From Longimicrobiaceae bacterium (GTDB taxonomy: Bacteria; Gemmatimonadota; Gemmatimonadetes; Longimicrobiales; Longimicrobiaceae): 64,000 bases of DNA. The number at the start of each line of letters is the position of its first letter. Positions within the stretch are counted from its first letter, which is position 1. The notes beneath the pieces are model-generated. The model ran no database searches. It was not told the DNA's origin and saw only the letters and a program-made list of their open reading frames with translations. This document shows positions 1,704-21,154 of the stretch, in pieces. The stretch is taken from NCBI GenBank assembly GCA_036375715.1, contig DASVBS010000031.1:186001-250000 (forward strand). The letters run 5' to 3'. Position numbers and translations under genes: made by a program.

Positions 1704-2249
1704 ATGAAGAAGATCATCCTTCTTTCGGTGGTGGGGTTGCTGCTGGGACTCAGCGGCGCGGTGGGGATCGTCGTCGTGCGCGAGAAGCAGGCTCGGGCCG
1801 CGGCGGCGGCGCTGCTCGCCGACTCGCTGGCGGCCGACTCCGCCCGGCTCGCCACGGTTGCGGCCGATTCGATCCTCGCGGCGGACACCGCGACAGCGGT
1901 TGCGGCCGATGCCGCCGCTCTGGCCATGGCACCCGCCGAACCCGTCACCGCCGCGGCGGAAGGCGATTCGACAACCGCGCCCCCGCCCGAGAAGTCGGAT
2001 AGCTCCGCTGCCGTCATTGCGGGCGACGCCCAGCAACCGGCCGGCGAGGAGCGCCTGGCCCGGATCTTCGCCGCGATGCGTCCGGAGGAGGCCGCAAGGG
2101 TGCTCGAGCAGATGACCGACGCGGAGATCCAGCGTCTGCTGTGGCATCTGCGTGAGCGGCAGGCGGCGGCGATTCTCAGCAGCATCTCACCCGAACGGGC
2201 GGCGGTCATCAGCAGTGCGGTGATCCGCGCCCAAAGGAGTAACCCGTGA
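1704..2249 (+). CDS. MotE-like flagellar chaperone with MgtE_N-type domain
   Basis: Predicted bitopic membrane protein of 181 residues. It has an N-terminal hydrophobic segment (about residues 4-25), an Ala/Asp-rich low-complexity linker (about 30-115), and a C-terminal helical repeat domain (about 120-172) with the pattern MRPEEAARVLEQM / AAAILSSISPERAA typical of the MgtE intracellular N domain. That combination between fliJ and fliK matches MotE, reported as a chaperone for the stator-associated protein MotC in alphaproteobacteria. No MotC is visible here, so the partner is unknown. The stop overlaps the fliK GTG by 4 nt. An Mg2+ transporter is excluded because there are no further membrane segments. 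Confidence 0.75.
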   Translation: MKKIILLSVVGLLLGLSGAVGIVVVREKQARAAAAALLADSLAADSARLATVAADSILAADTATAVAADAAALAMAPAEPVTAAAEGDSTTAPPPEKSDSSAAVIAGDAQQPAGEERLARIFAAMRPEEAARVLEQMTDAEIQRLLWHLRERQAAAILSSISPERAAVISSAVIRAQRSNP

Positions 2250-3949
2250 CCGGTCTGCTCGTGAACCTGGTTGGCGCCGCTACCGCCGCGCTGAACCTGC
2301 GGTCCACGGAGGCGAACCCTCCAATGTCGAAGGAGGTCGGGTCGAATCCGTCCTTCGCCTCGGCGCTGTCCGCCGCCCTGGCGCCGCGACAGCGGAACTC
2401 GCACGCCGCGCCAGCCGAGCGATCGCGCTCCGCCGACCTGGACGACGCGGAGGATTCGGTGCACGACGGCGATTCCCGGTCCGCCCCCTCCGTCCCGGAA
2501 GCGGGAGCCGCGCAGGCGGCGCGGACCGGGAGATCCGCGGATGCACGCGACGCAAAAGCGGGCAACGAGGCGGCCCCTGCCGATTCGTCCGCCCCCGCGA
2601 TGGTGGCCGGTCCGGGGCCGGCCCGAGGTCCGACCGCGGCGCGGCGGAGCCTGGAAGGGCTCGACCCTGAGTTCCGGGAGCGCCTGGAGCGGGTGATCGC
2701 GCGGATGGAGCGTGAGTTCGGATACGACGTGCAGATCGTCGAGACGGTTCGTGACCAGGCGCGGCAGGACTACCTCTACGCCCAGGGTCGTACGCGGCCG
2801 GGTCCGGTCGTGACCTGGACGCGCGACTCGAATCACCTGCACGGGCGAGCGGCGGACGTCATGATCGACGGAAGGTTCGATCACCCGGCGCTGAAGCTGC
2901 TTGCCCGGATCGCCCGTGAAGAGGGCCTCAGGACCCTGGGTGCGCGCGACCCGGGACATATCGAGCTGCCCTCCGGCGCCCGCGTGGAGCGCCTGGCGGT
3001 GTCGACCGGCGGGAGCAGCGCCCTGCTCGACGGGCCGGCCAACCGAGCGGCGGAGGGTGTGCGGCTGGCCATGGCCACACCGAACACGGTCGGCGGCGGC
3101 GCCGCGACGGGATCAGGAGTCGCGCGCGTGGCCCGAGTGGCCACGCCGGCCCGCGTTGCGGAGATCGCGCAGCCGGCGGAGGTCGCCCGCGTCGCTACGG
3201 TGGCCCGCGTTGCGACACCCGGTGCCCCCGGCGCCGCGGGGGTCGCAAGTCCATCCGCCCCCGCGCCGCAGCTAGCGGGTACGGCCGCGCTGGCGGCGCG
3301 TTCCGGGGGCGGAGGCGGTGCCGCCTCCGATGACCCGGGTAAGCGGGAGGGCCACACCTCCCACGGCCAGGCGGCGGCGGAAGTCGGAACCGCCAGCTCC
3401 CGCATCGACGCGGCGGCGCTACTCCTCGCCTCCGATCCCGGCGGTGCGGCCGGCTCTCCGGGGGATGCCGGCGCTCTGTCGGCGACTCTCGGCAGCGACG
3501 CGGCCGAGCGGATCGCGCGGGTGCTCCAGCTCCAGGACACCCCCTCGGCGCGCGCTCTCAGCCAGGTAGTGCTGAGGCTCGACAACGGCGTCGGTGGGGA
3601 GGATCGGATCCGCGTGGATCTGCGAGGCTCCTCCGTGGGCGCCGCGCTCGAGGTCGGTGACCCGCTGACCGCGGCCCGTCTCCAGTCCGAGCTCGGGCAA
3701 CTTCAACGGGCGCTGGAGGGGAAGGGGCTGCAGGCAGAGCACCTGAGCGTTGGCGCCCTCGGGGCCCATAGGGAGCTGATGGACGCGCTCCGAGGCGCGC
3801 TGGCCGCGGACACGGGGCAGCGTGCCTCACAGGACCCGGGAGGCAGGGGTGACGGTTGGGGGGGGCGGTCGGGTGGAGGTCGACAGCAGTCGGATTCCGA
3901 GCCGCGGCAGCATCCGCGGCGGCATACCCAGCAAGAGAGGAACACGTGA
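2246..3949 (+). CDS. fliK: Flagellar hook-length control protein FliK with embedded M15-type peptidase domain
   Basis: 567 residues starting at a GTG that overlaps the preceding stop. Domains in order: a disordered Ala/Pro/Ser-rich N-terminal region (1-135); a domain (about 136-255) with the peptidase M15/VanY-like pattern YAQGRTRPGPVVT, then SNHLHGRAADV and DPGHIEL, giving candidate zinc ligands H197, D204 and H238; a second low-complexity stretch including ARVAT-like repeats (about 292-330); and a C-terminal Flg_hook domain (about 430-510; LRLDNGVGGEDRIRVDLRG). Location between motE and flgD fits FliK, the secreted ruler that switches export specificity. A zinc peptidase inside FliK is not a normal part of this family. 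The fusion is one uninterrupted frame. Activity is inferred only from motifs. Confidence 0.88.
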   Translation: MTGLLVNLVGAATAALNLRSTEANPPMSKEVGSNPSFASALSAALAPRQRNSHAAPAERSRSADLDDAEDSVHDGDSRSAPSVPEAGAAQAARTGRSADARDAKAGNEAAPADSSAPAMVAGPGPARGPTAARRSLEGLDPEFRERLERVIARMEREFGYDVQIVETVRDQARQDYLYAQGRTRPGPVVTWTRDSNHLHGRAADVMIDGRFDHPALKLLARIAREEGLRTLGARDPGHIELPSGARVERLAVSTGGSSALLDGPANRAAEGVRLAMATPNTVGGGAATGSGVARVARVATPARVAEIAQPAEVARVATVARVATPGAPGAAGVASPSAPAPQLAGTAALAARSGGGGGAASDDPGKREGHTSHGQAAAEVGTASSRIDAAALLLASDPGGAAGSPGDAGALSATLGSDAAERIARVLQLQDTPSARALSQVVLRLDNGVGGEDRIRVDLRGSSVGAALEVGDPLTAARLQSELGQLQRALEGKGLQAEHLSVGALGAHRELMDALRGALAADTGQRASQDPGGRGDGWGGRSGGGRQQSDSEPRQHPRRHTQQERNT

Positions 3950-20758: not shown

Positions 20759-21154
20759 ATGAGCACGATCGAACGCTCGACGGCCCTCGGGGCTTCGACC
20801 CCTCCCTCGGACGAGGCGCGGCTACGCAAGGCAAGCCAGGATCTGGAGGGTGTCTTCGTTGAGCAGCTCTTCAAAGCCATGCGGGAGACCGTCCCCGAGA
20901 ACTCGCTCCTGGACGGGGGAACCGGCGAGGAGATGTTCACGAGCATGCTGGATTCGCACCTGGCCGCGGAAGTCCCCTCCCAGTGGGCGAGTGGGCTGGC
21001 GGAGGCGCTCTATCGGCAGCTTCGTGGCGCACTGCCGGGAGGGGAGAACGCGGACGGCGCGGGCGAGGTGAAAGCCGCCCTGGAGAAGGCCGCGTCCACC
21101 CCGGCTGTGCCTACGCTGGCGCGGGAGCTCTCCGCCGGCGGGGCACTTCCATGA
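20759..21154 (+). CDS. flgJ: Rod-binding protein FlgJ, N-terminal domain only
   Basis: 131 residues covering only the FlgJ rod-binding/rod-cap domain (LRKASQDLEGVFVEQLFKAMRETVP; GEEMFTSMLDSHLA). The C-terminal muramidase domain found in gamma- and betaproteobacterial FlgJ is absent, so another peptidoglycan hydrolase must open the wall for the rod. The peptidase-like domain in FliK of this cluster is one candidate. The stop overlaps the flgN ATG (ATGA). Confidence 0.92.
   Translation: MSTIERSTALGASTPPSDEARLRKASQDLEGVFVEQLFKAMRETVPENSLLDGGTGEEMFTSMLDSHLAAEVPSQWASGLAEALYRQLRGALPGGENADGAGEVKAALEKAASTPAVPTLARELSAGGALP

Follow-up and report, generated by a model that had tools for sequence, protein, structure and literature searches.

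Does the FliK ruler encoded in this 64,000-nucleotide stretch of DNA (the window) carry a genuine peptidoglycan peptidase within its own chain, and could such an enzyme open the cell wall for the flagellar rod in a cluster whose FlgJ has no hydrolase domain? The initial annotation had recognized a VanY-like M15 zinc-peptidase domain in the product of the open reading frame at 2246–3949, based on the motifs YAQGRTRPGP, SNHLHGRAAD and DPGHIEL. All three motifs are present in this frame, and H197, D204 and H238 are found at the residues assigned to them.

The fliK locus and its product

The fliK gene overlaps the upstream gene by 4 nt. On the upstream side it is accompanied by fliI, fliJ and a gene for an MgtE_N/FliG-like protein, and on the downstream side by flgD, which lies directly 3′ of fliK in the source genome, and then by flgE. 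The MgtE_N/FliG-like gene, located at 1704–2249 (+) between fliJ and fliK, was named after a match at E = 8e-7; its product has a membrane segment at the N-terminus and is a candidate MotE-like protein. The features of FliK and the flgJ gene of the same cluster are as follows.

2246–3949, + strand: fliK with the embedded M15 domain (GTG start, 567-aa open reading frame)
2246–2650, + strand: low-complexity N-terminal segment of FliK, aa 1–135, read from the sequence
2651–2980, + strand: M15/LAS zinc-peptidase domain, aa 136–245, from profile, AlphaFold and fold match
2828–2857, + strand: SxHxxGxAxD zinc motif with S195, H197, G200, A202 and D204, as in Ply500 and LysB4 (PMC3315420)
2948–2959, + strand: D235-P-G-H238, with the likely catalytic base D235 and the third zinc ligand H238, equivalent to Asp129 and His132 of PlyP56 (PMC5977269)
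3113–3228 (approximate), + strand: (V-A-x)n tract, about aa 290–327, linked to the M15 domain across the group
3557–3757, + strand: C-terminal Flg_hook (specificity-switch) domain of FliK, aa 438–504 (Pfam PF02120, E = 4e-5)
20759–21154, + strand: flgJ, 131 aa, rod-binding only and with no hydrolase domain (Pfam PF10135, E = 4e-15, and nothing else)

By analogy with FliK proteins in general, an export signal is presumed to reside within the first 135 residues. The PF02120 match at the other end of the protein reached 23.9 bits, which is under the Pfam curated cut-off of 29.8 bits, and the FliK proteins of G021 and L024 also remained below this cut-off. Pfam detected no rod-binding domain in the source FliK.

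Identity of the embedded domain

To what family the segment between these two ends belongs was addressed by sequence searches and structure prediction. In a phmmer search against the PDB, the source FliK matched Ply500 (2vo9) and LysB4 (6akv) at E = 1e-6, and the PHROG endolysin families matched its domain at E = 4e-16. A control profile was built from 52 M15 proteins, none of them FliK. The source FliK scored 104.6 bits with this profile; the best of 2,000 shuffled sequences reached 9.3 bits, and the other open reading frames of the window gave at most 5.3 bits. Chance resemblance was therefore ruled out by the shuffles, the decoy frames and the FliK-free profile. The Pfam M15 models gave no match to the source copy, so the domain would escape automatic annotation.

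A second profile, made from 128 M15 sequences, was searched against the PDB and retrieved Ply500 at 7e-27 and LysB4 at 8e-27, whereas the VanY/LdcB types followed far behind at 4e-7 and weaker. These sequence comparisons place the M15 domain of FliK closest to the endolysin-type L-Ala-D-Glu endopeptidases and not to the VanY carboxypeptidases, and the VanY-like assignment in the initial annotation has to be given up. The AlphaFold model of the domain had a mean pLDDT of 94.4, and its top Foldseek match in the PDB was again Ply500 (2vo9; probability 1.00, TM 0.75 by the query), with LysECD7, LysB4 and ChiX in the next ranks. In a viral structure library the fold matches were phage M15 proteins. 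Hedgehog ligands share this fold. Judged from the profiles and the predicted structure, residues about 136–245 of FliK are a true LAS/M15 zinc-peptidase domain, and the initial annotation was correct in this respect.

The active site and its conservation

The zinc ligands in the source FliK are H197, D204 and H238, the first two lying in the stretch S195-N-H197-L-H-G200-R-A202-A-D204. In Ply500 the corresponding ligands are His80, Asp87 and His133 (PMC3315420), and in PlyP56 the base is Asp129 and the ligand is His132 (PMC5977269). A fourth active-site residue of FliK, D235, which the initial annotation does not list, is the likely catalytic base; it precedes H238 by three residues, an arrangement shared with the endolysins, and aligns with the equivalent stretch of Ply500. 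Given the high-confidence fold match and the aligned ligands, the three ligands are likely to come together in a single site of the folded domain.

Alignment of 81 FliK copies showed that D204, D235 and H238 are kept in all of them and H197 in 80, the lone exception being an H197Q substitution in G197. The mean identity was 56% in the M15 domain vs. 39% in the hook domain, and the M15 domain was the more conserved of the two in 97% of the pairs. A conserved domain with a metal site and a base would most simply be an enzyme under selection.

Distribution of the M15-FliK fusion

We surveyed 395 Gemmatimonadota genomes, many of them MAGs, and found the M15 domain in 85 of them, in long open reading frames and with E values below 1e-38. 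The 89 distinct domain sequences comprised 88 from Gemmatimonadota and one endolysin (L028). A group-specific profile detected the FliK C-terminal domain after the M15 domain in 82 of the 82 copies uncut by contig ends, the remaining six of the 88 being cut by a contig end, and flgD followed the fusion gene in 77 copies. The fusion also occurs in single-contig assemblies (e.g., G042, G077, G094 and G118), and its named carriers include Gemmatimonas sp. S07.Bin085 (L020), a G. phototrophica MAG (L022) and a Longimicrobiales MAG (L024). The insertion seen in the source FliK is thus neither a single-genome feature nor a degenerate one, recurring in about 85 related genomes and keeping its ligands in the aligned copies apart from the single H197Q.

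Outside this phylum, none of 1,061 genomes (about 350 each from the phyla of L039, a Bradyrhizobium, L086, from Acidobacteria, and L073, from Syntrophobacteraceae) was positive at E ≤ 1e-20, in a set that contained no positive control and at a threshold above which no Gemmatimonadota FliK copy lies, all of these being below 1e-38. The 28 listed M15 matches outside Gemmatimonadota were rejected as FliK candidates, being endolysin-like or other stand-alone proteins. The M15 proteins of 13 relatives from the source family (L005–L017) were rejected as well, being separate proteins with a longer ligand spacing. They have the DPGH motif, and their gap is longer between the first two ligands; the ones whose complete sequence was read have an apparent signal peptide at the N-terminus, and most of the 13 genomes have no detected FlgJ. 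These proteins are possibly related to the M15 domain of FliK. In the M15 tree, which is based on few columns, the FliK copies and the Longimicrobium-type proteins were split from the other M15 proteins by a weak branch (72).

In G095 (family f5; FliK at L171:1282–3003, − strand) the M15 domain has decayed, its zinc ligands are lost and the (V-A-x)n tract is gone; the genome keeps its flagellar genes despite this decay. G381 has two different M15-FliK genes (L209 and L210), owing either to a second flagellar system or to contamination (6%). In G323 there are two FlhA genes (L295 and C107), which likewise suggests a second flagellar export system or contamination.

A (V-A-x)n tract accompanies the M15 domain

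The segment that follows the M15 domain contains a (V-A-x)n tract, exemplified in the source FliK by VARVARVATPARVAEIA. Such a tract was found after the M15 domain in 74 of 83 copies, the median gap being 37 residues, compared with 0.2% of shuffled tails. None of the 13 M15-less FliK proteins checked contained it, nor did the decayed FliK of G095. Among open reading frames of at least 400 aa in the surveyed loci, which partly overlap, 85 of the 87 with the tract were M15-FliKs. On this co-occurrence in the sequences, the M15 domain and the tract form a single module. As a guess, the tract might target the protein to the wall or the rod and so take the place of the wall-binding domain of endolysins.

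FlgJ, other wall enzymes and the history of the fusion

The absence of a hydrolase domain from the FlgJ of this cluster, part of the initial annotation, was confirmed. In a survey that rests on a 51-residue model, FlgJ was detected in 102 genomes, 83 of which have M15-FliK, and only two M15-positive genomes had no detected FlgJ. In the 26 M15-positive genomes inspected, 6–42 residues follow the rod-binding domain of FlgJ; these FlgJ proteins contain no enzyme, because such tails are too short. A glucosaminidase was found neither in the source genome nor among seven genomes examined, and the SLT domains of the source genome are all located away from the flagellar contig. As an alternative to the M15 domain, an SLT or glucosaminidase linked to the flagellum was considered and rejected, the SLT domains of G000 and G099 lying away from the flagellar genes.

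Two families of the phylum illustrate other arrangements. In family f11, outside the class, all six FlgJ proteins have an SLT-like tail, which matched Pfam SLT at 7e-30 in the single protein scanned. Of the six FliK frames of f11, five could be read completely and have no M15 domain; the sixth is partial. In family f4, inside the class, FlgJ is short in the 10 genomes having it, and FliK is without M15 in eight of the eight read. No wall enzyme was found within the approximately 19 kb read of the f4 flagellar clusters (e.g., L194, L266 of G099 and L267 of G088). These results imply that another route must exist in f4, and that not every member of the class needs the M15 domain.

In the FlhA tree, f4 is the sister of all M15-bearing lineages, with support of 100/99 for f4 and 97/93 for the rest. 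The simplest history is a single gain of the M15 domain after the f4 split, in a lineage whose FlgJ was already without an enzyme. This order fits a gained function, yet it does not establish M15 as the replacement for the FlgJ enzyme, since f4 dispenses with both.

Proposed role in rod assembly

We infer, with a probability of about 0.6, that this FliK is a hook-length ruler incorporating an endolysin-type L-Ala-D-Glu zinc endopeptidase that opens the wall for the rod, the activity, substrate and timing all forming part of this inference. FliK would pass in unfolded form through the elongating rod at a stage when the rod tip is still periplasmic, and the M15 domain, exiting the channel ahead of the C-terminal switch domain, would then fold in the periplasm and bind zinc. 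It would cut peptidoglycan stem peptides at the rod tip and thereby open or widen the hole for the rod and the P-ring, a job that elsewhere is done by dual-domain FlgJ or a separate transglycosylase. After the outer membrane has been crossed, FliK would leave the cell, so that the export process would by itself restrict when and where the wall is damaged.

Two lines of published evidence bear on this proposal. In Salmonella, a FliK-β-lactamase fusion (FliK-Bla) was exported to the periplasm and active there, and its periplasmic activity was highest in mutants whose structure stops short of the outer membrane (PMC13344023). A FliK-borne enzyme can therefore fold in the right compartment and at the right stage. 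In Borrelia, whose flagella have a single-domain FlgJ, a dedicated wall enzyme from another protein is needed (PMC8517470). For these reasons we propose that M15-FliK cuts the stem peptides close to the rod tip while the rod is growing. Against a wall-opening role we counted the f4 family, which is without both enzymes, the decayed M15 domain of G095 and the H197Q copy of G197. Few FliK molecules are exported per flagellum, which counts against this role as well.

It is also conceivable, if rather doubtful, that the M15 domain does cut the wall, yet not for the rod hole: it would serve later remodelling (P-ring, stators or polar cage) or, once FliK has been released, attack the walls of neighbouring cells. 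The conserved active site would agree with such a role, as would the passage of f4 rods without M15 in FliK and the secretion of FliK out of the cell when hook growth has begun (PMC13344023). However, the external FliK copies would be few and dilute, Salmonella FliK-Bla misfolds when secreted outside (PMC13344023), and the co-occurrence with hydrolase-free FlgJ fits a rod role at least equally well. We regard it as distinctly improbable that the domain no longer cuts and acts instead as a folded block, delaying export or attaching to the wall or to a component of the rod. Hedgehog ligands do employ this fold for binding, and an exported ruler could use a folded insertion as a timer, but the zinc ligands and the base would be needless in such a block, and yet they are kept in 81 or 80 of 81 copies across several families. 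Finally, chance resemblance, or an assembly artefact fusing a phage lysin gene to fliK, for which one might invoke the high GC content and low complexity of FliK and the silence of the Pfam M15 models on the source copy, can be dismissed in view of the margin of the profile score over the shuffles, and is refuted by the survey, in which the same fusion recurs in so many genomes, single-contig assemblies included.

Extending the proposal of a wall-opening ruler to the whole class Gemmatimonadetes, we are slightly inclined to believe that the ruler there is a flagellum-dedicated endopeptidase, cutting peptides and not glycans, that arose once when an endolysin-type domain was captured together with the (V-A-x)n targeting tract, combining the timing switch with the opening of the wall.

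Comparison with known systems and biological meaning

With Ply500, LysB4, PlyP56 and Serratia ChiX the FliK domain shares the fold, the SxHxxGxAxD motif, the three zinc ligands, the spacing from Asp to His and the YAQGRTxPGxxVT segment. Those proteins function in lysis or release, and the phage members also have a cell-wall-binding domain, whereas FliK has no recognized one. Unlike in the endolysins, the M15 domain occupies a central position in a ruler presumably exported by the type III system and is followed by the (V-A-x)n tract. As in dual-domain FlgJ (rod-binding plus glucosaminidase or SLT), a wall enzyme is carried by a protein exported during rod assembly, likely for the same task. 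In contrast to that FlgJ, however, the predicted enzyme is a stem-peptide peptidase and not a glycan cutter, its host is FliK and not the rod cap, and its time window differs, FliK being exported during hook growth as well. The systems of SltF in Rhodobacter and BB0259 in Borrelia (PMC8517470) are similar in that FlgJ has no enzyme and another protein supplies the cutting; in those systems, however, FlgJ is bound by an independent enzyme, whereas here the enzyme is part of FliK. Like the Salmonella-type FliK, the source FliK is encoded beside flgD and flgE and has a long low-complexity N-terminal part and a C-terminal Flg_hook domain, but Salmonella FliK has no enzyme domain, and the PF02120 match of the source FliK is weak.

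In the open-licence literature we found no paper that joins FliK with peptidase M15, or Gemmatimonadota with FliK and peptidoglycan. The flagellum-dedicated wall enzymes that we found described are all glycan cutters, located on FlgJ or on a separate protein that meets FlgJ. Flagellated, culturable Gemmatimonas species exist (PMC9862903), and the G. phototrophica MAG has the fusion, which makes the idea directly testable. A conserved enzyme domain of a core flagellar protein has escaped Pfam annotation. If the proposal is true, a stem-peptide cutter in the ruler would represent a second solution to the problem of how the rod crosses the wall without lysis, and the opening of the wall would be coupled to the very export process by which the hook is measured.
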